Source: Lactobacillus sp. (GTDB lineage: Bacteria > Bacillota > Bacilli > Lactobacillales > Lactobacillaceae). Taken from it: a stretch of DNA of 64,000 bases. How positions within the stretch are numbered: position 1 is the first letter of the stretch; each line of letters opens with the position of its first letter. Under the pieces are notes generated by a model. That model was not told the DNA's origin, made no database searches, and saw only the letters and a list, made by a program, of their open reading frames with translations. The position numbers were made by a program, and so were the translations under genes. The DNA lies in the NCBI GenBank assembly GCA_022484695.1, contig JAKVKU010000002.1, positions 186,001-250,000 on the forward strand, given 5' to 3'. Shown here piece after piece: positions 27,941-46,625 of the stretch.

Positions 27941-27981
27941 GCTAATTACGAACTTACTTAATAACTTTGGAGGTTGCGTTT

Positions 27982-29277
27982 ATGGAAAAAGAACCCATCA
28001 GAACTGCACCAGTTTCGTTAACCTTACCCACCCCAAGATACAAGACAGTCACTGTTTCGTCTCATTATTGGTGGCAAGTTGTTGCCATTTGTTTTCTCGG
28101 TTGGGTCTTGATCTACGCTGACCGCACCATTTTAAATCCGGTGATGCCTCAAATCGCCAGTGCTTTTCACATCAACAATACCCAGTTGGGATTGATGAAT
28201 AGTATTTTCTTTTTAACATATGCCTTGGCCCAATTACCCTTTGGTATGATTGCTGACAAAATTGGCCGGCGTTACATGATTACCCTGGGCTTCTTAATTT
28301 TCGGCCTAATGACTTTCTTCTCGGGAATTGTCTCCGCCTTTGGAGCTTTCCTGGTGGTTCGGGCCACTGCCGGCCTTGGGGAAGCCAGTTATTATGGCCC
28401 TCAATATGCTTTATCCGGTGAAGCCATCCCGTTATCTAAGCTCACATTAGGAACTGCCATTATCAATAGCGGCATGGCCTTTGGTTCATCTGGGGGTTAT
28501 CTATTATCCAGTTACTTGGTTTTACAACATCACCAACATTGGAGCCTGCCATTTTTCATTATTGCTGTTCCCACAGTCATCGTTGGTATTTTGTTCAGTC
28601 TACTATTGAAAGAAAAGATTCAAGTCAAGAATCAACCAACGCCAGTCACACCCGAAACGACCCAGGCTGAACCAGCACAACACCAAATTCGGGCTATTTT
28701 TACCAATCGGAATTTAATTTTGACCTTTGCCCTTTGTTTTTGTTCTATCTACGCCTATTTTGTCGTTTTAACTTGGCTGCCCCAATTTTTGCAAACTGAA
28801 CGGGGTTTTCAAGGAACGGCCGTGGGCTTCATTGCCTCAATTGTCCCTTGGGCGTCCATTCCCGGTGCTTTGTTCTTTGCTAAAGTATATGACCGCTTCA
28901 GCCACACCAAGTTACTGGTTTGGATCTTGGTCCCCATTGCCGTCATTGCCTTATTAACAGTCGGATTCACCACCAATCGGGCCTTATTGATCGTGGCTTT
29001 GATTGCCTATGGTTTGACTGGCAAGCTGGCTATTGACCCCATCCTGGTAGCCTTTGTCACCCGGCAAGCCAAGGGGACTAAATTGTCCACCACGTTATCC
29101 GCTTATAACTTCATTGGCATGTCCGGCTCTATCTTAGCCCCTTATCTAACCGGCTATTTGGCTGATAAAGTTGGCACCATGACCATCGGCTTTTACCTAG
29201 GGGCCGCCTTATTGTTACTGGGCGCCCTGGCCTTTTCCTTTACAAAAACCCGTACATCTAACCAATTGGAGGCTTAG
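27982..29277 (+). CDS. MFS transporter
   Basis: YADRTILNPVMPQIASAF, LPFGMIADKIGRRYMITLGF, GEASYYGPQYAL. SD GGAGG before 27982. Confidence 0.88.
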   Translation: MEKEPIRTAPVSLTLPTPRYKTVTVSSHYWWQVVAICFLGWVLIYADRTILNPVMPQIASAFHINNTQLGLMNSIFFLTYALAQLPFGMIADKIGRRYMITLGFLIFGLMTFFSGIVSAFGAFLVVRATAGLGEASYYGPQYALSGEAIPLSKLTLGTAIINSGMAFGSSGGYLLSSYLVLQHHQHWSLPFFIIAVPTVIVGILFSLLLKEKIQVKNQPTPVTPETTQAEPAQHQIRAIFTNRNLILTFALCFCSIYAYFVVLTWLPQFLQTERGFQGTAVGFIASIVPWASIPGALFFAKVYDRFSHTKLLVWILVPIAVIALLTVGFTTNRALLIVALIAYGLTGKLAIDPILVAFVTRQAKGTKLSTTLSAYNFIGMSGSILAPYLTGYLADKVGTMTIGFYLGAALLLLGALAFSFTKTRTSNQLEA

Positions 29278-29280
29278 CTT

Positions 29281-30198
29281 ATGCCAAAAGACTTAGCAAA
29301 CATCGCAGTCGTTACCTTTAACGCCCAATGGGGTAAAAAGGCGCAAAATCTCAACCGTATTCTTGGTTTCATTGAAAGTGCCGCCAAACGAGGGGCCGAT
29401 TTTATCTTACTCCCAGAAATGGCCCTCACTGGTTATGATGACCAGCCAGAAATTCCTTTGGAAGAAAAGATGCAATATCAATTGGCCGAAACTATCCCCG
29501 GACCCGCCACTGATCAAATTGCCACCCTCACTAAAAAATACGGGGTTTATGCCTTCGTGGGGATGCCAGAACGGGATAAAACCACGGATACCATTTATAA
29601 CAGCATGGCCGTCTTTAGTCCCCAAGGGTTATGTGGGACTTATCGCAAGATGCACCTGCCAGGCTTAGAGCCCAACTGGGCCAAACGCGGCGACACGCCC
29701 TTGATCATTGATACCCCTTGGGGGCCAGTGGGCTGTGCCATTTGTTACGACACTTGGGCCTTTCCCGAACTCATGCGCTATTATGCCGCCAAGGGCTGCC
29801 GGCTTTACATCAACATCACCGCCACCGCCCAATGCCGGGGTAAATATTTGGCCAATACTAACATCGAAGCTGGTGTGATCCGGGACTGCATCTTTGTGGC
29901 GTCAGCTAACCTTGGCGGCAAAGACTTATATAACGATTTTTGGGGTGGCAGCAGTGTGGTAGGCCCCGGTCAAAATACCTTAGAAGCCTATTACTATGTG
30001 GGCGGGAAATACACCGATGACCAAGCTAATGAGACGAAGTTAAATCTCACCACGGTGGACCTCTCCTTAGCCTCCCGCTATATCTACGAACCCAACCGAC
30101 TATTAGCTGGGCAAACCGATTTCCGCCCTGATATTTACCAAAAACTATACACCGAACTCAGCACTAATAATCTGATAGGAAGTGATCAGCATGCTTAA
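29281..30198 (+). CDS. carbon-nitrogen hydrolase (nitrilase superfamily)
   Basis: Catalytic triad E (LLPEMALTGY), K (YRKMHLPG), C (VGCAICYDTWAFPE). Confidence 0.92.
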   Translation: MPKDLANIAVVTFNAQWGKKAQNLNRILGFIESAAKRGADFILLPEMALTGYDDQPEIPLEEKMQYQLAETIPGPATDQIATLTKKYGVYAFVGMPERDKTTDTIYNSMAVFSPQGLCGTYRKMHLPGLEPNWAKRGDTPLIIDTPWGPVGCAICYDTWAFPELMRYYAAKGCRLYINITATAQCRGKYLANTNIEAGVIRDCIFVASANLGGKDLYNDFWGGSSVVGPGQNTLEAYYYVGGKYTDDQANETKLNLTTVDLSLASRYIYEPNRLLAGQTDFRPDIYQKLYTELSTNNLIGSDQHA

Positions 30199-31375
30199 TT
30201 TAACCTCCCCTTTTACCGATGCCGACTTTCAACTGCCCAGTCAAACCCAAGGGCCGCTATCCGGCTATACCTTCGCCGTCAAAGATGTCCTCGCGGTCCA
30301 AGGCCATGTCACTGGCTTAGGTAACCCCACTTGGGCGAAAACCCACACGCCAGCTTTAAAAAATGCCGCTGTGCTGAATCGGTTATTGTTAGCGGGTGCT
30401 GATCTAGATGGCATTACGGTCAGTGATGAATTCATGTTTTCCATCAAGGGTAGCAATTGTCATTTTGGCGACCCGCTGAATGCCAAACATCCCGATTGCT
30501 TCACCGGTGGTTCCAGTTCCGGCTCTGCGGCTGCGGTGGCCGCCGGTTTGGTTGATTTCGCCTTGGGTACTGATACTGGCGGATCTGTACGGGTGCCGGC
30601 CAGTTATTGTGACCTCTACGGTTTTCGGCCCAGTCACGATCCCGCCAATCAGCTCAAGGGCGTTGCCCCGTTGGCCCCTAGTTTTGATACCGTGGGGGTT
30701 TTGGCGGCTGACCTATCGACCCTAAACAAGGTGAGCCAAGCTTTATACGGCCCCGGTCGGTACTTAAGCATCCGCCGCTACTATTATCTCCAAGACCTAC
30801 TGGCCACGGATGCTAGTGGTGCTTATGAAGCCCTGTTAAAAACCGCCTGCGTGGCTTTGGATATCACGCCCCAGCAGTTGACACCTATCCGCTTGCCCAA
30901 AGCCTTTACGCTGGCCAAACTTCATGGCGCTTTTAAACGCATTCAAGGCTTTGAGGCTTGGCAAAATTATGGCTCCTGGTTAAATAGCCATGACGCTCAA
31001 TTAGGGGTGGATATTGCCCAACACTTCGCTTATGCAAAAAGCGTGGCAAATGATGTCGCCTTGACCCAAGCCTATGGGTTAAAACAAGCCTGGGGCCGCT
31101 ATTTAAATATGCTATTAAACCAACAGGGCCTGTTATTGATCCCAACAACCAGTTCGCCAGCCCCTAACAAAGAAGCGGCTTTAGAATCTGCGGAACAGAT
31201 CCGCCAGCAAACCCAATATCTCACCACCATCGCCGGTTTAGCGGGCCTGCCCCAGGTTGCCTTACCCCTGAAGGTGGCTGGCCAGACCCGCAGTCTAGGT
31301 CTAATTGCCGGTAAGTGGCGGGATACTAACTTATTGAAATTGGCCACCCGTTATTTTGGAGCTGATAGTCTATGA
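30191..31375 (+). CDS. amidase signature family protein
   Basis: FAVKDVLAVQG, GGSSSGSAAAVAAGLVDFALGTDTGGSVRVPASYC: Lys-Ser-Ser triad. Start overlaps the upstream stop. Confidence 0.92.
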   Translation: MLNLTSPFTDADFQLPSQTQGPLSGYTFAVKDVLAVQGHVTGLGNPTWAKTHTPALKNAAVLNRLLLAGADLDGITVSDEFMFSIKGSNCHFGDPLNAKHPDCFTGGSSSGSAAAVAAGLVDFALGTDTGGSVRVPASYCDLYGFRPSHDPANQLKGVAPLAPSFDTVGVLAADLSTLNKVSQALYGPGRYLSIRRYYYLQDLLATDASGAYEALLKTACVALDITPQQLTPIRLPKAFTLAKLHGAFKRIQGFEAWQNYGSWLNSHDAQLGVDIAQHFAYAKSVANDVALTQAYGLKQAWGRYLNMLLNQQGLLLIPTTSSPAPNKEAALESAEQIRQQTQYLTTIAGLAGLPQVALPLKVAGQTRSLGLIAGKWRDTNLLKLATRYFGADSL

Positions 31376-32058
31376 AAATCATTGATCGGCAGCTCACTTA
31401 TTTAACCGTGGGACAAACTTTACTCATGGGGATGCTAGACGCCTATACCTTTAGCCATTTTGATGGCGCCTTTGCCAGTGCCCAAACCGGCAATCTCGTG
31501 GTCTTCGGGGTGGCTTTGAGCCAGCAAGGTTGGCGGACAGCCGCCAGTCACCTACCGATTTTTTTCGGCTTCTTGATTGGCGCTATCCTAGCCCAGCTGA
31601 TTCGCCAACAAGCAGCCCCCTTAAAACCGACGACCCGTTTAAAATTATTCACCGGCCTCAGCATCATTTTACCCTTGGCCTTGTTGGCGCTACAGCCTGG
31701 TCCCAAATGGCTCAGCTTGAGTCTGTTGGGATTGTTCGCCAGTTATGAATTAACCATTTTTAATCAAATCGGGACCACCACCGTCAATAATGGCATCATG
31801 ACGGGGAATATTAAAAACTTCGGCAATTCAATTTATACTTTCTTGAGCCACCCCAGTACCGCCACCGGATTGAAAGTGGGCCATTTTGCCATTGGTATTG
31901 GCACATTTATTTTAGGGGTGATCTTAGGCTGTAGTTGGTTCAATCAATCGCCGCAACTGATTCTTTTGGGCGGTGCGGTGATGAACCTCAGCTTTTTGAT
32001 CTACCTCACCGTGGTCAATCGCCAACCTGTTACCCTCTTGAAAAAGGATGAATTTTAA
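31372..32058 (+). CDS. DUF1275 (YoaK-like) membrane protein
   Basis: MGMLDAYTFSHFDGAFASAQTGNLVVFG; ATGA overlap with amidase stop. Confidence 0.85.
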   Translation: MKIIDRQLTYLTVGQTLLMGMLDAYTFSHFDGAFASAQTGNLVVFGVALSQQGWRTAASHLPIFFGFLIGAILAQLIRQQAAPLKPTTRLKLFTGLSIILPLALLALQPGPKWLSLSLLGLFASYELTIFNQIGTTTVNNGIMTGNIKNFGNSIYTFLSHPSTATGLKVGHFAIGIGTFILGVILGCSWFNQSPQLILLGGAVMNLSFLIYLTVVNRQPVTLLKKDEF

Positions 32059-32087
32059 ATTACCTAAAAAAATACACCAAAAAGCAC

Positions 32088-32130
32088 GTCACACTTAAAA
32101 GAGAAATTTAAGGATGGCGTGCTTTTTAAA
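32088..32130 (+). terminator. terminator-like hairpin of the nitrilase/amidase operon
   Basis: AAAAAGCACG...CGTGCTTTTTA. Confidence 0.6.
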
Positions 32131-32295
32131 GAGTCTAACAATAGAGACTGCCGCAAGGGGGACTTGCGTTTTAGAGCTATGAATTGAAGGGATCAATTGG
32201 AAATAATCCCTAAATAAATGATTAAAAAGTTATCATTTACTCAACATTATTATACAACAAAGTTAACCGTATTTAAATATCGTATCGCAAAATAC

Positions 32296-33138
32296 TTATA
32301 TTTTATAAGTAATTTTTTGCTGGAGATTTCGTAATAACTCGCTAAGCTGTAAGCCGTAGCGCCGTTCCCGCTCAGATGCTTGGGTTTGTTCCAAAGCTAT
32401 CCAAGTTAATTCATTGGCCGTGGTCACGGCTTGGGGCAGGGCCATGTTGTGATATAAAGCGCAGCTTAAGACCGCTGCAAAGGTATCGCCGGCACCAAAG
32501 AAATGGCCGTCTAATTTTTTCTGAATAAATTTTTCAATTTTTTGACCTTGGCCCAGATAGGTGGCGATTTGCCCGTGTTTTTGCGGGACACCGGTAATCA
32601 CCACGTCCGCCTTGGTCAATTGGGCCAGGTTGGCAAACAATTCGCCAACCTGGGCTTCAGAGACAACACTTTGCAATGGGGCCCCGGTCAACAATTGGGC
32701 CTCCGTTAAATTAGGGGTAATCACGGTGGCCTGCTGGATCAAATGGCGGATAGCTTGAATGTTGTCTGCCGTAATAGCTGGATATAAAGCACCGCTATCC
32801 CCCATGACTGGGTCAATCACCACCGTTGTCATGTGTTGTGTGGCTAAATAGCTGTCAAACAAGTCGACTAATTCGGTGTTGCCCAGATAGCCGACTAAGG
32901 CTCCTGATAATTGAATCTGCTGAGCCTGCCAATGGGCAAAGGTGGCCTTTAACCACTGGGTCATGGGATAGTTGACGGGCGTGCCAAAGCCTTCCGTTTG
33001 AGCAGACAGCAGGCTGGTGGGTGCTAAAGCCTGGGGGATATTACAAGCAGCAAAAATGGGGATTGCGCAGGCTAAAGAGATTCGACCAACGGCTGATAAG
33101 TCTTCCCCAATCAAAAAAGGTTCTACACTTTTGGCCAT
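32296..33138 (-). CDS. pyridoxal/pyridoxamine kinase-like PfkB/ThiD-fold kinase
   Basis: VVIDPVMGDSGALYPAIT, ITPNLTEAQLLTG, GHFFGAGDTFAAVLSCAL. Confidence 0.85.
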   Translation of the reverse strand: MAKSVEPFLIGEDLSAVGRISLACAIPIFAACNIPQALAPTSLLSAQTEGFGTPVNYPMTQWLKATFAHWQAQQIQLSGALVGYLGNTELVDLFDSYLATQHMTTVVIDPVMGDSGALYPAITADNIQAIRHLIQQATVITPNLTEAQLLTGAPLQSVVSEAQVGELFANLAQLTKADVVITGVPQKHGQIATYLGQGQKIEKFIQKKLDGHFFGAGDTFAAVLSCALYHNMALPQAVTTANELTWIALEQTQASERERRYGLQLSELLRNLQQKITYKI

Positions 33139-33140
33139 AA

Positions 33141-33650
33141 TTATGAATGGGACGGGTTTTTGACCCGGCTACGAATCCCTAAATAAACCGGATAAGCAAT
33201 CAAAGCGCCTAATAGACCCTGAATGCTGTTGGTAGGCAAGCCCACCAACCCAGTTTGAATTTGATACAACAGTGAATCGGCTAGGAAGTAACCAAAGACC
33301 ATCCAGACAATGCCCACGACCAAGCTGGCAATTTTGCCTAAGTGACCATACTTTTCAGCTAACCAACCCACTAAGAAACCTTCCAAACCATGGATGACCA
33401 GGGAGAAGATCATGTATTGAGAATAACCTGAAATTAGATCCAACAAAAAACCACTGGCGCCCCCAACAATGGCCCCTTGTTTCTTACCAAATAATAGCGC
33501 TGCAATAAATATGCCGGCGTCACATAAATTGACATTTCCGTGCGTCATTGGAACCGGAATTAAGAAAACACGTGAAATAGCTACTGTAACGGCAATCATG
33601 GCCGCCAAGTAAACTATTTCTTTGGTGGACATACGATGCTTTGACGTCAT
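33141..33650 (-). CDS. ECF transporter S component (predicted pyridoxine/HMP-type)
   Basis: VYLAAMIAVTVAISRVFLIP ... GNVNLCDAGIFIAALLFGKKQGAIVGGASGFLLDLISG; operonic with the kinase. Confidence 0.82.
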   Translation of the reverse strand: MTSKHRMSTKEIVYLAAMIAVTVAISRVFLIPVPMTHGNVNLCDAGIFIAALLFGKKQGAIVGGASGFLLDLISGYSQYMIFSLVIHGLEGFLVGWLAEKYGHLGKIASLVVGIVWMVFGYFLADSLLYQIQTGLVGLPTNSIQGLLGALIAYPVYLGIRSRVKNPSHS

Positions 33651-34097
33651 GCTAATTTACCTCCTCAGATAAATGGGTACTTATATTAATATTCCTTGAG
33701 TATTCTATCATACTTTTCCCATAAAATATCCAATTTTACTGTTTTATCAAGGATAAAGTTGCTTTTTACTGGCCCAATTGAGAATCGCTCTCAGTTTGTG
33801 AAATAATATGCTATTTTTATACGCAATCAGTCATTATTATTTATGAGATAAATTTTAAAATGTCTCATTGAATTATTTGGTTGCATGCAAGTTAATCAAG
33901 TCTGTATTATCGGGAATACATCCGCCGAAAATAAGGGTTTACCCTAAAAATATTTCATATTATTGTGTCGTATTTTCATCAGTGTTATGGTTGATTTGAA
34001 TTAAGTTGGTTGTATTTTTTGACAATATTTTTTTTATTTCGTTAATTAAATTGTGAAATAAATAACATGACGTACTATTTACCTATTGTCCGACCCG

Positions 34098-34119
34098 GGG
34101 TCACGCCTTGACGTGACCC
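34098..34119 (+). other. hairpin in the preT leader
   Basis: GGGTCACG-CCTTGA-CGTGACCC, 8-bp perfect stem, 31 nt before the preT ATG. Confidence 0.6.
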
Positions 34120-34150
34120 ACCAATCAATCACACAGGGAGTTTTGATTTT

Positions 34151-35380
34151 ATGACAATTGAAAAGTATCAACAAGAAGCTAAGGGCTATACTATGACCAC
34201 TGTCATGGCTGAAGCCGCCCGTTGTCTGCTTTGTCACGATGCACCTTGTTCAGCCGCTTGTCCGGCCCACACGGATCCCGCCAAGTTCATCCGCAGTGTG
34301 CGCTTTCGCAACTTCAAGGGTGCTGCTGAAACCATTCGGGAAAATAATGCCTTGGGTTCGATTTGTGCCCGGGTCTGCCCCACTGAAAAATATTGTGAAT
34401 TAGCCTGCACCCGCACCGAGATTGATTGCCCCATTAATATTGGTGGCATTCAACGTTTCGTGACTGATTTTGAGCAAAACGCTAACATGGACATCCTCAA
34501 AAAAGGCCCCGCTAATGGGCTGAATGTGGCAATTATCGGCAGTGGCCCTGCTGGTCTGCAAGCCGCCGCCACCTTGTTGACCCTGGGCTATGGGGTGGAT
34601 ATTTACGAGAAAAATGAAAAGGCTGGGGGCTATTTAACCTATGGTATCCCCGAATACCGCCTACCTTCCGACATCGTAGACGTTGAGATCCAACGTATTT
34701 CAAACCTGGGCGCCAACATCACCTATAACGTCACCGTTGGCCAAGATATCACCATGGCCGCTTTGAAAGCCGACCATGACGCGGTGATCATAGCTGCTGG
34801 GGCCAGTGTGGCCAAAACCTTGCCGCTATTTGCGGACAATCCTTACGTACAAAGTGCCGTTGATTTTCTAGCAGAAGTTAAAAGTAACCCCGCTGGCGTG
34901 GACTTGCCGACAAATGTCTTGGTAATTGGCGGCGGGGATGTGGCCATGGATGTGGACACCACCCTGAAATTATTAGACGTTAAAAATGTCACCGACGTGG
35001 TTTACGAAGAATTTGCTGAATTTAAAGCCTCTGATAAAGAATTAGCAGGGACCCAAAAACAAGGGGTCACCATTGTGGATGGCTATGTGCCCACAGCCGT
35101 TAATGGCAATACTGTGACCTTCAAACATCGCCAGCTTAATAGTGAACTGACGATTGAAGCCGACAAGATCATTCTAGCCGTTGGCCAACAAGCTGATGTC
35201 ACCAATTTAGGGATCGAACTTGAGAATAATGAACTGACCCATGGTGGTTTTCACACCGCTGATCCTAAGGTATTTGTCACGGGTGACTTAGCCCAAGGTG
35301 ATAAAACCGTGGTGGTTGCCGTACAAAAGGGTAAACAAACTGCTGAAGAGATCCATCGTGTGCTAGGAGGTCAAAACTAA
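34151..35380 (+). CDS. preT: NAD-dependent dihydropyrimidine dehydrogenase subunit PreT (FAD/NAD, Fe-S)
   Basis: [23 protein letters not shown] Fe-S motif, [22 protein letters not shown]. Confidence 0.88.
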
Positions 35381-36627
35381 TGATTAAAAAAGACTTATCC
35401 ATTGATTTCATGGGCGTTCATTTTGAAAATCCCTTCTGTTTATCTTCTTCACCTGTGGGTAATTGTTATGAAATGTGTGCCAAAGCCTATGATGAAGGCT
35501 GGGGCGGGGTTGTTTTCAAAACTATCGGCCCAGCGGATTTTGAAATCGACGAAGTATCGCCCCGCTTTGATGAATTGACCAAAGAAGATACGCCCTTTGT
35601 GGGTTTTAAAAATATGGAACAAATCGCCGAACATCCCCTAGAGGAGAATTTGGCTGACTTACGTCGTTTAAAAGACGCTTATCCCAACAAGGTATTAATT
35701 GCCTCAATCATGGGGACCAATGAACAGACTTGGGAAGAGTTGGCGGGGATGGTGGAAGCTGCCGGCGCGGATATGATTGAAATGAACCTGTCTTGCCCGC
35801 AAATGACCTCCCATGCCATGGGTTCCGATGTGGGGACGAATCCTGAACTTTGTAAAAAGTATTGTGAAGCCGTTAAACGGGGCTCTAAATTACCTATGAT
35901 GGCTAAAATGACCCCAAATATTACCGATATGGTCATCCCCGCCAAGGCTTGTATGGCTGGGGGTGCCGATGGGATTGCGGCCATTAATACCGTTAAATCC
36001 ATCGCCAATGTGGACTTGGATCGTAAAATTGGCTTGCCGATCATTAATGGGAAATCCTCAATTTCCGGGTTTTCCGGTAAGGCCGTTAAACCCCTGGCTC
36101 TGCGCTTTATCCAACAAATGCGGGATGCGGAAGGTTTAGAAAACTTACCAATTTCCGGCATTGGGGGTATTGAAACTTGGGAAGACGCCGCTGAATTTAT
36201 TCTCTTAGGCTCAAGTACCCTCCAAGTCACCACGGCCATCATGCAATATGGCTATCGCATCATTGAAGATTTAACCAATGGCCTCATGCATTACATGGCC
36301 GAACAAGGCGTGGAGCACTTGTCTGAACTAGTTGGTTTAGCCAACAAAAATATGATTCCGGCCGAAAAATTAGACCGGGATTATAAGGTCTTGCCTTACA
36401 TCGACTGGGATAAATGTATCGGTTGTGGTCGTTGCTTAATTTCTTGTTTTGATGGCGCCCACCAAGCCATCACTTGGGACGAAGCGACTCGGCGGCCAAC
36501 GGTGGACCCGGATCGTTGTGTAGGTTGTCACCTGTGCAAGCTGGTTTGTCCGGTGGATGCCATCAGTGCTGGTGAAGTTGTCATGAAAGCCGGCCGCGTG
36601 GGGACGGCCGCCAGTAAACAAATTTAA
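35380..36627 (+). CDS. preA: NAD-dependent dihydropyrimidine dehydrogenase subunit PreA with C-terminal ferredoxin domain
   Basis: DHOD-like barrel ([23 protein letters not shown]) and [11 protein letters not shown] / [12 protein letters not shown] Fe-S motifs. Confidence 0.92.
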
Positions 36628-36709: not shown

Positions 36710-39625
36710 TTAAGCTAATTTCTTATTTTTACGCCGGTATAACCAGATCACTAAGCCTTGAATTGCCAACAGCACTAGACCGCCAATAATATTGATGGTC
36801 GTCACTGTTTTTTGCCAAGGTAATTTATCGGTGGCACTGGCCGCATTACTTTTAGCGTAAGTGCGACTGTTAACGACCGTGTATAAAATATTGTGGGCGG
36901 AACTGCGCATGGCTTTGACCGCAGTGGCACTCTTCGTATCATCTAAACTAGCGCCAAAAGCGCCAGTGGTGGATAGCATCATGTCATTGCCGTTGCGCAC
37001 GGCTTTATCGGCATCCATGTAGCCCATACCCCCGAAGTAATCCGTAAGAACTAAGCCATTAAAGCCCCATTCATTACGCAGGACATTCTTTAAGAGTGGC
37101 GTACTGCCACCGGCCCATTGATTACCCACGTAGTTAAAGGCCGACATAACGGCAGTGGCGCCACCTTCTTTAACCGCTAACTCGAAAGGTTTGAGATAAA
37201 TTTCCCGGATTGCCTGTTCCGTGCTCCAAGTTAGTAACATATTGCCCCGATTGGTCTCTTGATCATTTAAAGCAAAATGCTTCAGATAGGCATAAACACC
37301 CTGACTCTTGGCACCAATGGTTTCTTGGGCGGCCATCATCCCAGATAGCGTGCCATCTTCAGAGTAATATTCAAAGTTCCGGCCGGCAAAGGCACTGCGG
37401 TGGATATTCATCGCTGGGCCGTACCAGCCGGAAATCCCCAGTTGATTGGCCTCTTGGCCCACGGCTTGCCCCCGTTGTTTAGCCAGGTCTTGGTTCCAAG
37501 TGGCAGCGATCATGGTTGCGGTTGGAAAAGCAGTGCCCTTGGTATCCACGAAGAAACTACTAATACCCGCGGGTCCATCAAAATCGTAAGTGTGCCCCTT
37601 GGCAACGGATTTCGCAGCCACAGTTTGGTAACCACCGTAAGTGATCAAGTTACTCATATCTTTGATGGTCATTTGATCCAACAACTTGTCCCACTTGGGA
37701 TCATTATATTTTTTATTGCGGAGATCCTGCAAGGCTAAGTTATTGTTCGCACCGGTCTGCGGCATTTTATCTTGACTATCATTTTTAATCTTGTAAGTTT
37801 TATCGTTGGTTAAGCCATTCTTTTCTAAAGCTGTTAGCGCCCGTTTTTCTGGGGCTGCTGTGGCAGTATTTAAGTTGGCGAAGTTGTCTTGCCGACTTAA
37901 ATAGGTCACTTCACCCCGAGTGAAGTTGGCGAATTGATTCTTAGCCACGATTTTATCCGACAGGCGTTTATGTTGTTGATCATAGGTGATGGTCGTCGGC
38001 ACATTCAAAGTTTTACTAGTGGTGATTTCATGGGCGTTATTATTCAAGGAAATACCATAATCCCCACTAGCTAGTACATAAGCGCCGCCATTGGCTTCAT
38101 CATAAGCAGCTAATTGTTCCTGGTTAAAACTGATGGTCAGCTTTTGACTGGCCCCGGGAGCTAGGGTTTTCGTTTTGGTAAAGGTCAGTAGATTGGTCGC
38201 TGCTTTTTCCACCCCACCATTTTCATAAGGCGGTTGGAAATAAGTTTGGACCACATCCTTGCCAGCTTTTTGGCCGGTATTAGTCACCGTCACATCAAAC
38301 TCAACTTTCCCATTGGCCCCCTGACGCAGGTCACTCATTTCCTGGGTGAAGTTGGTATAACTCAACCCATAACCTAGGGCATATTGCACCGCATCCCGAT
38401 AACCAGCTTCATTATTTTGATAATAAGTCTCATAGAATTTATAACCCACATAAATATTTTCGGCGTAATCTACCCGAGTATACTTGCTATCTTGATACTT
38501 GAAATCGCCAAAATTATGCCAAGTTGGTGTTTTCTTTAAATCATAGACATACGTGTCCACTAAGCGACCAGATGGGTTGACCTTCCCGGTTAAAATATCC
38601 CCTAACGCGGAAAAACCAACGGCCCCAGGGCCAGACATCCATAACGCACTGCGAATATTATCGTATTGATTGAGCCAACCTAATTCCATGGGATTAGCAG
38701 AGTTGACCAAGACCACAACGTCTTTGAAATTACTGGTGACCAACTGAACCATTTCCTTTTCGCTCTTAGATAATTGTAAGAAATGTTGGCCTTTTTTATA
38801 GTCACCCTTGTTGCCTTTATAAGTCACATTCTTAGCTGCCATGTCCGTTGGTAAATCCGCCCCTTCTCCCCCTACCCGGGAAATCACGATCAAGGCGGTG
38901 TCGGAAAAGTTTTTGGCATCAGAAACTAATTTATTGGAATAGTCTTTTTTCGCCGGTTCCACTAAGGTCCAATCTTGCTGCCTCATTTCAACCTTGGGCC
39001 GATCTTTGCGATACTTCGTGTAAAATTGGCTTAAATCGTTGTTTAGCTGAAATCCCGAATCTTTCAAGCTGTTTAAGATACTCGTGGCATTGCTGGTATC
39101 CACATTACCGGAGCCAGTGCCACCGTAGACTGGGTTGGTGGATGCCCAGCCGAAGACGTTTAACTTTTTGGTGTTGGCCTTTAAGGGTAAGAAGCCAGCT
39201 TCATTTTTCAACAATACCGTACCTTCTTCCGCAATATTGCGGGTCAGTTGCTGATGATCTTTTAAAGTAGCGGCTTGGATCGTATCTAGTTTGGCATAAT
39301 TTAAGTTTAATAGACTGGCCATGGGTCCAAACAAGATAACATTTAAAGTCACCATGATGGCCACTAGCAAGGCTAAAAGCGACTCCCATTTCAACCAAAA
39401 TTTAAAGCGCCAAGTGCGTTTCCTAAAGACAATAAGTGCCGCGATAATAATAACAATTAAAATAACCAACGGAATAAAATAATTAGCTACTTTACTTAAA
39501 GTGCCAAAAACGTCTGCAATATTTAGTACCGAATCTTGACTTAGTTTACGCCAGGCATAAAAAATCCCGGCCACGACTACCACGACGATAATTGCAGGGA
39601 CCCATATCTTTTTAGACTTTTTCAT
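36710..39625 (-). CDS. GH3 family beta-glycosidase, apparently domain-permuted, with N- and C-terminal transmembrane anchors
   Basis: GH3_C-like block (RNIAEEGTVLLKNEAGFLPL) precedes the TIM-barrel blocks (FDGPAGISSFF, NFEYYSEDGTLSG, LKHFALNDQETNR, GFNGLVLTDYFGG). Three N-terminal and one C-terminal TM. Start at MKKSKKIW. Confidence 0.88.
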   Translation of the reverse strand: MKKSKKIWVPAIIVVVVVAGIFYAWRKLSQDSVLNIADVFGTLSKVANYFIPLVILIVIIIAALIVFRKRTWRFKFWLKWESLLALLVAIMVTLNVILFGPMASLLNLNYAKLDTIQAATLKDHQQLTRNIAEEGTVLLKNEAGFLPLKANTKKLNVFGWASTNPVYGGTGSGNVDTSNATSILNSLKDSGFQLNNDLSQFYTKYRKDRPKVEMRQQDWTLVEPAKKDYSNKLVSDAKNFSDTALIVISRVGGEGADLPTDMAAKNVTYKGNKGDYKKGQHFLQLSKSEKEMVQLVTSNFKDVVVLVNSANPMELGWLNQYDNIRSALWMSGPGAVGFSALGDILTGKVNPSGRLVDTYVYDLKKTPTWHNFGDFKYQDSKYTRVDYAENIYVGYKFYETYYQNNEAGYRDAVQYALGYGLSYTNFTQEMSDLRQGANGKVEFDVTVTNTGQKAGKDVVQTYFQPPYENGGVEKAATNLLTFTKTKTLAPGASQKLTISFNQEQLAAYDEANGGAYVLASGDYGISLNNNAHEITTSKTLNVPTTITYDQQHKRLSDKIVAKNQFANFTRGEVTYLSRQDNFANLNTATAAPEKRALTALEKNGLTNDKTYKIKNDSQDKMPQTGANNNLALQDLRNKKYNDPKWDKLLDQMTIKDMSNLITYGGYQTVAAKSVAKGHTYDFDGPAGISSFFVDTKGTAFPTATMIAATWNQDLAKQRGQAVGQEANQLGISGWYGPAMNIHRSAFAGRNFEYYSEDGTLSGMMAAQETIGAKSQGVYAYLKHFALNDQETNRGNMLLTWSTEQAIREIYLKPFELAVKEGGATAVMSAFNYVGNQWAGGSTPLLKNVLRNEWGFNGLVLTDYFGGMGYMDADKAVRNGNDMMLSTTGAFGASLDDTKSATAVKAMRSSAHNILYTVVNSRTYAKSNAASATDKLPWQKTVTTINIIGGLVLLAIQGLVIWLYRRKNKKLA

Positions 39626-39714
39626 AATTTTTTCCTTTCTCCATAACCCTTCTAGATAACGCCTATATTTTGGCTGCCAGTACCCCTTTGCTGAGCCCAC
39701 TCAAAACAACGGAT

Positions 39715-40239
39715 CTACTGGACTTTCTTCATAATTTTGAATTTCATCATCGGATAATTGATGACCACTTGTAAGACAATGTTGATCACATTGGCAATGG
39801 TCGCCGCAAAGCCACCCACATAAGGGGAAATTTGCCCAATAATGTACGGTGGCAACCAGACGGAAATCAAGCCGGCAAAAACCACCGTGCCAATATACCA
39901 AGGCAATACTTTCCCAATTTGAATCGTTGCCCCAAACACAATTTTACGTTGCACGATAAAGTTGACAATTTGCGCACAGACATAGGCCAACAAGAAGCTC
40001 AAGAAGCCCCCTAGGCCGCCTTGGCCCTTGGGATAGTTAAAAATAAACCAATGAAAATTGATGCTACTCAGGCCTTTGAAAAACAGCCCGGTCCCTAACC
40101 ACAGGACGATAAAGTTAGTCACTGTAGCCACGTTACTCATAATATTAAATAGAATAAACTCATAGATGTCCGGATGCTTCTGTTTGTAATTGCGAATCGC
40201 GGTGATGACTTTGCTATTTTTAAAACCAGCCTTAGCCAT
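39715..40239 (-). CDS. GtrA-like family membrane protein (paralog 1)
   Basis: 174 aa, four TM; YEFILFNIMSNVATVTNFIVLWLGTG, AQIVNFIVQRKIVFG, INYPMMKFKI. Confidence 0.85.
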   Translation of the reverse strand: MAKAGFKNSKVITAIRNYKQKHPDIYEFILFNIMSNVATVTNFIVLWLGTGLFFKGLSSINFHWFIFNYPKGQGGLGGFLSFLLAYVCAQIVNFIVQRKIVFGATIQIGKVLPWYIGTVVFAGLISVWLPPYIIGQISPYVGGFAATIANVINIVLQVVINYPMMKFKIMKKVQ

Positions 40240-42638
40240 TAGGTCGCCGCCTTTCTTTGCCGCCGTTTATTGGCCCGATACGCCCGCCACAAACCGGGGA
40301 TACTGGTGAAAAAGTGGCCGTTGACGATGTTTAATAATTGAGCCAGCATAGCCGTATCCACAGCGCCGTTGGTCATCTTGGTCATTGCTCGAAAAGGCAT
40401 ATTGTAAATAAATAATAAATTCAAATCTGGCTGGCCCTTTTTGGCATGGCGCTTTAACAAGTAGGCTAACAGCCGCTGGCTTAAGCGGGCTAACCCGCTT
40501 TTGGCAAATTGCATATCTGACATGATGTTGTTGGCAGATAACTGAGTCACCTCGGTATTTTCCGGCAGGGGGCCACCATACAACGCTGCAAAATCGGCCA
40601 TGGTTAAAGCGTCAAAATGATGGTCATAATAGTTGGCTAGACTTGCTGGTGGTTTTGTGGAGGACACGCCTGCTTTTAAGTCATAGGCCACGGTTGCTGC
40701 TATATCGTGGGCATTGTGCCCCACCATCATTTGATAAGTTCCAGCCTCAACTTGCCAACTTTGGGTGGTGGTGTCGTAAAACCGGAATGTATATTCATCA
40801 AAGGGGATGTGAATTCGGCGTTGTTGGCCAGCTTCTAGGTAGATCTTTTGAAATCCCTTTAATTCTTTAGCCGGTCGAATGACGTTGCTGGTGGGTTTAC
40901 CCACATATAATTGCACCACATCCCCGCCAGCTACTTTCCCACTATTTGTGACGGTTACTTCTATGCCTTGTTCGGTGACCTGAAGATCTGCATAGGCAAA
41001 TTCGGTGTAACTCAACCCATAACCAAAGGGAAATTGAACCGGGATTTGGGCCGTCTCATAATAACGATAACCCACAAAGATACCCTCTTTGTAATAAGCT
41101 TGTTCTTGAGCCGTGGGGAATTCTGTTCCAAACAAGACATCTGTATAGGCCACAGGATAGGTCTCAGCCAAATGTCCGCTGGGATTATGTCGGCCACAAA
41201 GCACCTCTAACATGGCACTGGCCCCAGCTTCACCCCCCAAATAGCCATGAAGCAGACCGGCTACTTGCTTAAATTCCGGACAGGTGATCACCGAACCGGC
41301 GGATAAAACCACCACAATGGGCTTGCCGGTGGTCAGTAGGCGCTGCAGTAAATGGATTTGATTAGCCGGTAAAGCTAAAGTGGTTCGATCCACCCCTTCG
41401 CTTTCAGATATTTCATCTAAGCCAAGGTACAACAGCACAGCTTCACTGCCCTTGGTCAATTCCATGGCTTCAGCTTCTAAATCGGCTTGGCTAGCCGCAT
41501 TTCTTTGATAACCCTGGGCGTAACCCACCACGTTGATGGGATAGTCTTTGATCACATCCAAGGTACTTTCTAATTGCTTAGTATTCACCACCGAAGAGCC
41601 GGCCCCTTGATAGCGGGGCGTCTTGGCAAAATCACCAATCAAGGCCACGGGTACCTCACTGGCCAGGGGTAAAATAACCCCTTGGTTTTGCAACAGCACA
41701 ATACTTTCAGTTGCCGCATTTTTAGCTAATTGGTGGGCCTCGTCCCAATCAATGGTTTGCTGTTGGCCAACTTGATGTTGGTTTAAAATCACCTGCAGAA
41801 ATTCATCCACCCGTTGATCCAGGTCAGCTTCTGCTAAGGTCCCGTTATCAACGGCGGCAATGAGTTCTTCAGCGCCATTGATGCCTAAAGTTGGCATGGC
41901 TATGTTACTCCCCTCAGCCACCCCGGCCACATGGTCATTATCCCCACCCCAATCGGACACCACAAAACCTGGAAATTGCCAGTCAGCTCTTAGAATATCC
42001 TGCAACAAGTGCCTATTTTCGTTGGCATAGGTTCCATTAACAAGATTGTAGGCTGACATAATAGCCTGGGGTTGACCAGCTTTCACAGCAATCTCAAAAT
42101 TGGTGGTGTAAATTTCCCTAAGCGAGCGTTCGTCCACACAGGCGTTAAGGGCCATGCGCCGGTTTTCCTGATTATTCACGGCAAAATGCTTGGGACAAGC
42201 AATGGTGCCATTGGCTTGAATGCCGCGGATGCTGGCAGCTGCCATTTTCCCGGCTAAGTATGGATCTTCACTGAAATATTCAAAGTTACGGCCACATTTG
42301 GGATTCCGTTTGATATTTAACCCTGGTCCCAGGACAACTTGTACATCTAAAGCAGCCGCTTGGGCACCTAGGCCAACCCCGACAGATTCAATCAACGCCT
42401 CATCCCAACTATTGGCCAACGTTGCTGCCGTGGGAAAACAGGTCGCCGGTAAGCTGGCATTTAAGCCTAAATGATCCCCGGCCCCGGCTTGTTTGCGAAT
42501 GCCATGGGGCCCATCGGAGAAAAATATTTTCGGCACTAGACCGGGAATCTCAAAAGATTCCCAGGTGCTTTGACCAGACATTAAACTGGCCTTTTGGGGT
42601 AATGTTAATTGATCGATTAGCTTCTGATTGCGCAGCAT
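40239..42638 (-). CDS. GH3 family beta-glucosidase-type enzyme, canonical domain order, no signal peptide
   Basis: SDGPHGIRKQ, GRNFEYFSEDP, KHFAVNNQENRR, GFVVSDWGG, then C-terminal and FnIII-like domains. Start at MLRNQKLID. Confidence 0.92.
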   Translation of the reverse strand: MLRNQKLIDQLTLPQKASLMSGQSTWESFEIPGLVPKIFFSDGPHGIRKQAGAGDHLGLNASLPATCFPTAATLANSWDEALIESVGVGLGAQAAALDVQVVLGPGLNIKRNPKCGRNFEYFSEDPYLAGKMAAASIRGIQANGTIACPKHFAVNNQENRRMALNACVDERSLREIYTTNFEIAVKAGQPQAIMSAYNLVNGTYANENRHLLQDILRADWQFPGFVVSDWGGDNDHVAGVAEGSNIAMPTLGINGAEELIAAVDNGTLAEADLDQRVDEFLQVILNQHQVGQQQTIDWDEAHQLAKNAATESIVLLQNQGVILPLASEVPVALIGDFAKTPRYQGAGSSVVNTKQLESTLDVIKDYPINVVGYAQGYQRNAASQADLEAEAMELTKGSEAVLLYLGLDEISESEGVDRTTLALPANQIHLLQRLLTTGKPIVVVLSAGSVITCPEFKQVAGLLHGYLGGEAGASAMLEVLCGRHNPSGHLAETYPVAYTDVLFGTEFPTAQEQAYYKEGIFVGYRYYETAQIPVQFPFGYGLSYTEFAYADLQVTEQGIEVTVTNSGKVAGGDVVQLYVGKPTSNVIRPAKELKGFQKIYLEAGQQRRIHIPFDEYTFRFYDTTTQSWQVEAGTYQMMVGHNAHDIAATVAYDLKAGVSSTKPPASLANYYDHHFDALTMADFAALYGGPLPENTEVTQLSANNIMSDMQFAKSGLARLSQRLLAYLLKRHAKKGQPDLNLLFIYNMPFRAMTKMTNGAVDTAMLAQLLNIVNGHFFTSIPGLWRAYRANKRRQRKAAT

Positions 42639-42785
42639 GCACCTCACCCTTTCGTTTGATATAATAACTATAGCAATGATGTATGCGCTACCAAACCAAT
42701 CCAGCATAACTTGCCCACATTTCGACACAACCTGTCAAACGCCCAGGATTCAATCTATTTACTAACTAGGGAGGCAACCTATATC

Positions 42786-43496
42786 ATGAAAATTGCAATC
42801 GTCGAAGACGATTTGAACCAACGTACTAAATTACGACAACTAATCGAAAACTTTGCCACCACGAACGACCTTTCCACAACTATCAGTGAATTTGCAGATG
42901 GCTTAACCATTGTAGATCAGTTTCAGAATGATTTTGACGTGATTTATTTTGATATCCAGATGCCCTTATTAGACGGCATGTCCGCTGCTAAAAAAATTCG
43001 CCAGCAGGATCCTAATGTGCTGATCGTTTTCCTCACCAACTATGTCCAGTTTGCCATCGAAGGTTATGCGGTGAACGCCAGCGATTTCTTATTGAAACCC
43101 TTAACTGGCTTTAGCTTTCAAGCCCACTTTAAAAAGCTGGTGCAACAATTGCAGCAACAACAACCCCAGACCTATGTCATCAAAAATAAGACCGGTTGGC
43201 GTAAGATTGCCTTAGATGACTTAAGCTATGTAGAGTCCGAGGGCCATGCCTTATATTTCCACGTCCATGATGATGTGTACAGCACGCTGGGGGCCTTGAA
43301 AAATTTGGAAACAGAACTGGCCGAATCCCACTTTTTTCGCTGTAATAACTGCTATTTGGTCAATATGAAGCATGTTCAAGGTATCGATGGCCATACGTTA
43401 CACCTGGGTCAGTCTGATTTGACCATTAGCCGCCCCCGGAAAAAAGCTTTCATGGTGGCTTTGACCAATTATTTGGCCGATGGGGGGCAAAGCTGA
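42786..43496 (+). CDS. LytTR family response regulator
   Basis: MKIAIVEDDLNQRTKL, IYFDIQMPLLDGM, and LytTR domain (YVESEGHALYFHV, FFRCNNCYLVNMKHV). SD GGGAGG. Confidence 0.93.
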   Translation: MKIAIVEDDLNQRTKLRQLIENFATTNDLSTTISEFADGLTIVDQFQNDFDVIYFDIQMPLLDGMSAAKKIRQQDPNVLIVFLTNYVQFAIEGYAVNASDFLLKPLTGFSFQAHFKKLVQQLQQQQPQTYVIKNKTGWRKIALDDLSYVESEGHALYFHVHDDVYSTLGALKNLETELAESHFFRCNNCYLVNMKHVQGIDGHTLHLGQSDLTISRPRKKAFMVALTNYLADGGQS

Positions 43497-44800
43497 TGTC
43501 CCTGTTGCCAGATATTCCCAGATTGTATACGGCCCTGGCCGAATGGTTGGCCGTTGCCCTAATTGTTTACCAATTTCAAAATAGCCGTAAAAAACGTTTC
43601 GGCTTAAGCCTCCTGCTCATGGGGGCGGGCCAAGTCGCCTTACAACTTTGGGTAGGCACTTGGGGCTTGCAGTATTGGGTGTTGGGGATGATTTTAAACG
43701 TGGCCTGGATGTATGCCACCTTATTTGTCACGTTGAATCTCCCTTTATTGACCTGTAGCTATAATCTTTGTAAAGGATTCATTTTTGCGGAGTTTCTAGC
43801 CGCCATTTCTTGGCAGTTATACTGTTACTTTTTTATCGATATTGCCAAGATCACTACCTTTGAGCTGCCCTTTATGTTGATCAGTTATGTTGGTTTAAGT
43901 GCTATTTACCTAAGAATCGGATCCGGTCAACGCCATCAATTGACCCAGCGGCGAACAACGAAACGGGAGACCATGCTGGCAGCCGTATCAGCAGTGATTA
44001 TTTTTGCTGTAAGTAATTTAGGCTTTGTCCTCTCTAACACCGTCTTTACCCTAGGGGCGGTCCAAGCCATCTTCACTTTTCGCACCCTAGTAAATCTCTG
44101 CGGCCTATTAATTTTATACATCGAAGAAAACAGCCGTTATAATAGTCACCTGCGGCATGAGTTGCGGGCTATCAACAACGTGGTCCAATTCCAGCACGCC
44201 CAATATAAGGCCTATGAAGAAAGCAGTGCTTTGATCCATCAAAAATTCCATGACTTAAAACATCAACTGACCATTATCGAAGCCGAATCCCAAGCCACCA
44301 AACGCAAAGCCTACGTTACTGAACTTAAAAAAGACCTGATGGCTTATCAGGCCGCTGTAAAAACTGGCAATCCCGTGGTGGACACTATTCTCACGGAAAA
44401 AAACCGGTATTGTTTGCAAAAGAAAATCACCTTGAGTTGTTTGGTCAACGGCAAAGTCTTAAACTTCCTGGCAACCATGGATCTCTGCAGTTTACTGGGC
44501 AACGCTTTAGATAATGCCATCGAATCAGTTTTGACCAATGGGGATGTTGATAAACGCTTAATCAAGTTGCAAATCGATCAAAAAGCCAACTTTGTAGTTT
44601 TCAACTTAACCAACTATTGCGAAACCCCCCTGGCCTTTGAAGATGGCCTACCCACGACCACCAAAAGCGATGAAAAATACCATGGTTATGGCTTAAAAAG
44701 CATCCGCTACATTGCCCAAAAATATAACGGTACCGCTGTAGTGAATTTGGAAGATAATTGGTTTACCGTTAAGGTTTTATTACCACTATCGGCTTCATAA
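43496..44800 (+). CDS. sensor histidine kinase, GHKL/AgrC-like
   Basis: N-terminal multi-TM, HQKFHDLKHQLTI His box, LLGNALDNAIES N box, HGYGLKSIRYIAQKYNG G box. Confidence 0.92.
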   Translation: MSLLPDIPRLYTALAEWLAVALIVYQFQNSRKKRFGLSLLLMGAGQVALQLWVGTWGLQYWVLGMILNVAWMYATLFVTLNLPLLTCSYNLCKGFIFAEFLAAISWQLYCYFFIDIAKITTFELPFMLISYVGLSAIYLRIGSGQRHQLTQRRTTKRETMLAAVSAVIIFAVSNLGFVLSNTVFTLGAVQAIFTFRTLVNLCGLLILYIEENSRYNSHLRHELRAINNVVQFQHAQYKAYEESSALIHQKFHDLKHQLTIIEAESQATKRKAYVTELKKDLMAYQAAVKTGNPVVDTILTEKNRYCLQKKITLSCLVNGKVLNFLATMDLCSLLGNALDNAIESVLTNGDVDKRLIKLQIDQKANFVVFNLTNYCETPLAFEDGLPTTTKSDEKYHGYGLKSIRYIAQKYNGTAVVNLEDNWFTVKVLLPLSAS

Positions 44801-46094: not shown

Positions 46095-46625
46095 TTAGAC
46101 TTTTTTCATAATTTTAAACTTCATCATTGGATAATTGATGGCGACTTGTAGGCAAATGTTGAACACGTTAGCCAAGGTTGGGGCAAAACTGCCGGCAAAA
46201 GGACTAACCAGGGCAATCACATAAGGTGGTAGCCAAATGGACAATAAACCTACAAAGATGACGGTGCCAATGTACCAAGGCATTACTTTGCCAATTTCCA
46301 CATCAGCCCCAAAGACGACTTTACGTTGGACAATGAAATTTACAATTTGCGCGGCCATATAAGCCAATAAGAAACTCAAGAAACCACCTAACCCACCTTG
46401 GGCAAGGCCATAGTTGAAGATAAACCAATGTAGCGAAATACTGCTTAACCCTTTGAACAGTAGCCCTGTTCCCAGCCATAACACAATGAAATTGGTCACC
46501 GTTGCCACATTCCCCATGATATTGAATAAAATAAATTCATACATGCTGGGATGTTGCACCTTATAGTGCTTGATCACTGAGACTAGCCGGTTTTGTTGCA
46601 ATTGTTTACGTTCCATGAAACTCAC
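46095..46625 (-). CDS. GtrA-like family membrane protein (paralog 2)
   Basis: Strongly similar to 39715-40239 (FILFNIM-NVATVTNFIVLWLGTGL-FKGLSS). Confidence 0.85.
   Translation of the reverse strand: MSFMERKQLQQNRLVSVIKHYKVQHPSMYEFILFNIMGNVATVTNFIVLWLGTGLLFKGLSSISLHWFIFNYGLAQGGLGGFLSFLLAYMAAQIVNFIVQRKVVFGADVEIGKVMPWYIGTVIFVGLLSIWLPPYVIALVSPFAGSFAPTLANVFNICLQVAINYPMMKFKIMKKV

Follow-up and report, generated by a model that had tools for sequence, protein, structure and literature searches.

We identified a GH3 enzyme of permuted domain order, predicted to be anchored in the membrane at both ends, in a 64,000-nucleotide stretch of DNA (the window) whose proteins resemble those of Agrilactobacillus composti (97% protein identity). 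Its gene lies beside one for a GtrA-like membrane protein (GtrA1), and in other genomes the two are accompanied by a particular soluble GT2 glycosyltransferase and by UDP-galactopyranose mutase (Glf). This gene set points to a surface-glycan system rather than to an ordinary food-digesting enzyme, and the reading we favor, with a probability of roughly 0.45, is an envelope-glycan system, regulated and acting on both sides of the membrane, whose anchored GH3 would trim or remodel a glycan after its export. As far as the literature we searched goes, neither the doubly anchored clade nor its gene cluster has been described, and no description of a GH3-GtrA pairing was found there; one paper lists bifidobacterial GtrA and GH3 genes as separate induced genes only (PMC11418510). 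Coordinates of the features are collected in Table 1.

Table 1. Features of the permuted GH3 locus, with positions numbered from the first nucleotide of the window
Feature	Position	Strand	Basis
Permuted, doubly membrane-anchored (predicted) GH3 enzyme, 971 aa	36710..39625	-	ORF, start codon and ribosome site, Pfam, model, fold match
Predicted C-terminal TM helix, residues 944-962, then basic tail	36740..36796	-	Hydropathy, model helices
Glyco_hydro_3 TIM-barrel domain, residues 696-881, nucleophile D862 (codon 37040-37042)	36983..37540	-	Pfam
Fibronectin III-like domain, residues 457-529	38039..38257	-	Pfam
Glyco_hydro_3_C, (alpha/beta)6 sandwich, residues 136-395, acid/base E254 (codon 38864-38866)	38441..39220	-	Pfam
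Three predicted N-terminal TM helices, residues 7-100	39326..39607	-	Hydropathy, model helices
GtrA-like membrane protein GtrA1, 174 aa	39715..40239	-	PF04138 in 17/17 subfamily members; weak DPM synthase fold match
Canonical-order cytosolic GH3, 799 aa from ATG 42638, basic C-terminal tail	40239..42638	-	Pfam; start from promoter layout
-10-like sequence TGCTATAGT	42667..42675	-	Position in promoter layout
cre-like (CcpA) element between repeats and -10 region	42680..42693	-	1 mismatch to TGWAARCGYTWNCW
Direct repeats CAGGTTGTG-N12-CAAGTTATG, LytTR-type candidate site, conserved across genera	42705..42734	-	
LytTR response regulator	42786..43496	+	PF00072 and PF04397
GHKL-type multi-TM histidine kinase	43496..44800	+	PF14501
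GtrA2, second GtrA copy, 72% identical to GtrA1, downstream of GH13 gene	46095..46625	-	

The ORF list takes the reading frame of the permuted GH3 to a GTG at 39700; we place the start at the ATG at 39625, which is preceded by a ribosome site (GGAGAAAGG) and gives 971 residues rather than the 972 of the preliminary description. Pfam places Glyco_hydro_3_C (E 7e-31) first, the Fn3-like domain (2e-10) second and Glyco_hydro_3 (2e-32) last, all three above their curated cut-offs. When aligned with the PDB sequence of T. neapolitana Bgl3B, both halves match in swapped order. An AlphaFold model built with 27 relatives as input (pLDDT 82.9, pTM 0.84) finds its closest PDB folds in the solved permuted enzymes 5wug and 5k6l-o; about 860 to 900 columns are matched to 5wug and 5k6o, as against only about 440, or about half, to canonical GH3s. 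These results agree with the preliminary description, which had placed a GH3 C-terminal domain and a fibronectin III-like stretch ahead of the TIM barrel and noted reversed GH3 order in some ruminal bacterial beta-glucosidases. The order itself is already known from GlyA1 (5k6l-o), BrGH3A and the P. barengoltzii beta-glucosidase (5wug), which share the arrangement of sandwich, FnIII and barrel as well as the catalytic Glu and Asp.

Both catalytic residues, the acid/base E254 and the nucleophile D862, are invariant in every alignment row that covers them. The aromatic residue after the nucleophile is a glycone-contacting (glucose-stacking) Trp in GlyA1 and BrGH3A (PMC5104943, PMC11233000), and the window enzyme has Y863 there; the position is Y, F or Q in all doubly anchored rows and Trp in none of the anchored rows. 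Likewise Tyr677, the subsite -1 Tyr of characterized permuted GH3s, corresponds to F830. These are specificity features and lie outside the fold definition of the permuted subfamily. Since the catalytic residues are kept and the glycone Trp is lost, the enzyme is probably active and presumably acts on a sugar different from that of GlyA1 and BrGH3A. The same genome (locus L071, G000:C4) carries a second permuted GH3 that is secreted, lacks TM anchors and keeps the canonical Trp. The best NCBIfam match of both GH3s in the window is NF041610, an exo-alpha-(1->6)-L-arabinopyranosidase family whose sugar is galacto-configured, although the scores (306 and 672) are far below its 1300-bit equivalog cut-off.

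Hydropathy peaks in the permuted GH3 begin at residues 7, 49, 82 and 944 and coincide with long helices of the model. From the distribution of positive charges flanking these helices (MKKSKK; FRKRTWRFKFWLKW; YRRKNKK), both ends are predicted to be cytoplasmic and the catalytic body to lie outside, which is the topology first proposed for this protein, with three TM segments before the body and one after it. The characterized permuted enzymes differ in this respect and in lacking the GtrA, GT2, Glf and two-component context; we looked for TM segments in the GlyA1 and BrGH3A papers and found none.

In a phylogenetic tree the doubly anchored permuted GH3s form one clade (support 94/92) adjoining a singly anchored clade, and those without TM anchors branch outside both. 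Singly anchored enzymes also adjoin a cytosolic GH3 gene but are without GtrA, GT2 and Glf. We rejected the idea that a membrane anchor as such tracks GtrA: the GtrA-less loci L053-L057 and Niallia L121 encode one N-terminal TM segment, so only the double anchor does. Because these pairs occur without glycan genes, the shared core appears to be a GH3 pair, with one enzyme outside the cell and the other in the cytosol. In GtrA clusters the cytosolic GH3 is extended at its C-terminus by a basic tail of some 25 residues, which is absent from GtrA-less pairs; the double anchor, this tail and the glycan genes thus occur together. Two GH3 relatives are plasmid-borne, and no plasmid-borne GtrA was found.

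The GtrA1 gene, co-directional with the permuted GH3 gene and 89 bp upstream of it, overlaps the canonical GH3 gene at the stop of the latter. Against PF04138 the window protein scores 25.5 bits, just below the curated cut-off of 26.1; all 17 subfamily members match at E<0.01, and several relatives exceed the cut-off. A fold search, in which the four-helix membrane fold was the feature compared, gave 9ep0 and 5mlz as its top two matches, a GtrA-bearing DPM synthase, with probabilities of 0.94 and 0.90 but weak E values (0.36-0.66). A search of solved structures by sequence with the GtrA profile produced no match. By homology, GtrA1 is a putative GtrA-type flippase. GtrA2 is located six kb away, downstream of a set of mannose-type PTS and GH13 genes, and has neither GT2 nor GH3 beside it. 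On the other side, the region preceding the permuted GH3 (27967-36627 of the window) encodes a pyrimidine-degradation-like set consisting of an MFS transporter, a C-N hydrolase, an amidase-like protein and a PreT/PreA-like dehydrogenase. The host genome carries separate ordinary GtrA/GT2 genes and one YfhO elsewhere, so that the GtrA1 system is an addition to those.

We surveyed 298 Lactobacillales genomes, of which 27 carry a permuted GH3. A GtrA1-type protein is present in 18, and all 18 also carry the permuted GH3 (Fisher 1.5e-22) and the particular soluble GT2 (18/18; 1.4e-19), with Glf in 17 (1e-7); the counts and Fisher values ignore shared ancestry, and the GtrA1 genomes span 11 genera. 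Glf lies within 5 kb of GtrA1 in 11 genomes of 7 genera. The single GtrA1 genome without Glf (G254) has a decayed cluster in which the GH3 is truncated and the canonical GH3 and regulator pair are missing as well. The same gene set recurs in G525, a genome from a different class of the phylum, where Glf belongs to another lineage (33% identity). The linkage to GtrA seen in the window extends through 11 genera of the order and, beyond it, to one or more genomes of another class.

Several clusters show decay or additional genes. A deletion runs from mid-GH3 to GtrA in L065 (G254), the permuted GH3 is truncated at 771 aa in L044 (G110), and several genes are frameshifted in L047/L081 (G252). In three loci of one genus (L045, L047 and L064) genes for an MprF-like lysyl-phosphatidylglycerol synthase and a VanZ-like protein adjoin the permuted GH3, a hint of envelope function. 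In two genera (L051:5845-8598 and L052:9881-12892) the permuted GH3 is followed by a large GH3, secreted or a lipoprotein, that has long DPYA-type tandem repeats close to its N-terminus. In some genomes of genus g21 (L092, L093, L101) an SSURE-domain LPXTG surface protein and a different regulator pair are encoded downstream of the GT2 homologue. The cluster of L110 (G440) encodes GH114-like and chemoreceptor-like proteins and a very divergent GtrA (29%).

The GT2 occurs together with Glf in 33 of the 35 genomes that have it, including 16 of the 17 without GtrA1, and because it tracks Glf we regard it as a candidate galactofuranosyltransferase. It has no TM helices and is closer to polymer-making GT2s than to DPM/GtrB lipid-phosphate synthases, and a lipid-phosphate product is therefore unproven. 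In several clusters the GtrA1 gene overlaps the GT2 gene by 4 bp; in the Agrilactobacillus genome of the window, both GT2 and Glf are encoded on other contigs, the latter within an EPS-like locus. These partners fall outside the 64,000 nucleotides and could not have been seen when the locus was first described. Among genomes without GtrA1, no common membrane partner is shared by the GT2 neighborhoods.

The LytTR/GHKL pair is divergent from the canonical GH3-GtrA1-permuted GH3 genes and lies upstream of the canonical GH3. Between the response regulator and that GH3 is a paired repeat of consensus CARRWTRTG-N12-CARRWTRTG, whose 21-bp spacing would suit a LytTR regulator, and the divergent response regulator presumably binds it. 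Ten loci contain the pair with 0-2 mismatches of 18, as good in 0/300 shuffles, and two further loci have it at a level equaled in 1/300. The whole genome of the window has one exact match, at the shared promoter upstream of the canonical GH3; in the distant G525 the pair was sought and not found (6 mismatches). In most loci a cre-like element separates the repeats from the -10 region; its match varies from strong to weak, and it is degenerate in some relatives. Such elements are typical of catabolic operons.

In the envelope-glycan system that we propose, Glf would make UDP-galactofuranose, and at the inner leaflet the soluble GT2 would add galactofuranose (Galf) or a related galacto-configured sugar to a lipid of the membrane or to a lipid-linked glycan. 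This product would be carried to the outer leaflet by the GtrA-like protein, and there the doubly anchored GH3 would trim or remodel the glycan by retaining double displacement (nucleophile D862, acid/base E254). The cytosolic GH3 would hydrolyze the same linkage inside, perhaps held at the inner face by its basic tail, while the divergent LytTR/GHKL pair would turn the operon on and CcpA would probably restrain it. We infer from the gene set that Galf is the sugar, that transport has this direction, that one common glycan serves all of the enzymes, and that the substrate and reaction of the permuted GH3 are as given, with hydrolysis rather than transfer. Counting for this proposal are the co-occurrence of GtrA1, GH3, GT2 and Glf, the recurrence in G525, the GtrA1/GT2 overlap, the double-anchor clade, the loss of the glycone Trp, the basic tail and the promoter repeats. 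Counting against it are the location of GT2 and Glf in trans in the window genome, the resemblance of this GT2 to polymer-making enzymes and the cre-like element; moreover, singly anchored GH3 pairs exist without glycan genes, so a GH3 pair can serve something else. The preliminary description had named an envelope glycan or lipid-linked glycoside as the target, a suggestion considerably strengthened by the conserved GT2 and Glf. Its further idea that GtrA presents this substrate to the GH3 is still presumptive, as is the identity of the substrate.

GH3 enzymes are mostly catabolic. It is conceivable, if rather unlikely, that the two enzymes scavenge glycosides of plant or microbial origin from outside the cell, the anchored GH3 cutting them at the surface and the cytosolic GH3 finishing the imported products, with GtrA, GT2 and Glf only loosely connected. 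The cre-like elements suggest carbon-catabolite control, singly anchored pairs of both GH3s exist without biosynthetic genes, and characterized permuted GH3s break down plant oligosaccharides (PMC5104943, PMC11233000). However, the cluster has no conserved sugar transporter, the association with GtrA, GT2 and Glf is near-absolute, the GH3, GtrA and GT2 genes overlap, and the glucose-stacking Trp is lost.

Known Gram-positive systems combine a GT-A enzyme, a GtrA-type flippase and a GT-C (PMC8035078). Because the cluster is without a GT-C, the usual third component, the GH3 may hold that slot. The anchored GH3 would then be an outer-face transferase, a retaining transglycosylase passing sugar from a GtrA-flipped lipid carrier to a wall polymer, which we consider unlikely. 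GT2 and GtrA are present, no GT-C-like multi-TM protein is conserved in the clusters, the sole large protein conserved at the outer face is the GH3, whose double anchor goes with GtrA, and the host owns ordinary GtrA/GT2 genes and a YfhO besides. On the other hand, the acid/base and all other hydrolase residues are intact, which makes hydrolysis the expected reaction; a GT-C gene could lie elsewhere in the genome, and in L. lactis one GtrA can serve several GT-Cs (PMC8035078). Less likely again is the specific version in which the GH3, controlled by a two-component switch of its own, would use a GtrA-flipped lipid-linked Galf donor for retaining transglycosylation and so decorate or reversibly edit a wall polymer. 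Chance adjacency of the permuted GH3 and GtrA in this genus, favored by nothing but the absence of GT2 and Glf from the window, is extremely improbable and is ruled out by the recurrence across genera, and in another class, found in the 298-genome survey.

The envelope-glycan system proposed here resembles the Gram-positive multi-component transmembrane glycosylation systems (GtcA/CsbB/YfhO, GtlA/GtcA/GtlB, and CsdA-F with CflA of L. lactis) in combining a GT2 of putative GT-A type with a GtrA-type protein, and it would share their outer-face action on envelope glycans. In contrast to these, the cluster has a soluble GT2, an anchored GH3 and no conserved GT-C-fold transferase, YfhO being encoded elsewhere in the genome; it also has Glf (implying Galf), two GH3s and a dedicated two-component system. 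In EPS1 of L. johnsonii (FI9785_241-242, GtrA-GtrB) a GtrA/GT2 pair is needed for a surface glycan and no third-component glycosyltransferase was found close by, but the GT2 is of the GtrB type and linkage to GH3, Glf or regulators is not reported (PMC7117936).

Permuted GH3s are known as plant-polymer degraders, and in the clade described here such an enzyme appears to have become membrane-integrated at the outer face, with links to a lipid-sugar flippase, a regulator and a probable galactofuranosyltransferase. Should the proposed glycan role hold, lactic acid bacteria, vagococci and additional genera of the Lactobacillales would possess Galf-dependent envelope decoration, and the GH3 would be a candidate for the missing outer-face component of GtrA systems without a GT-C.
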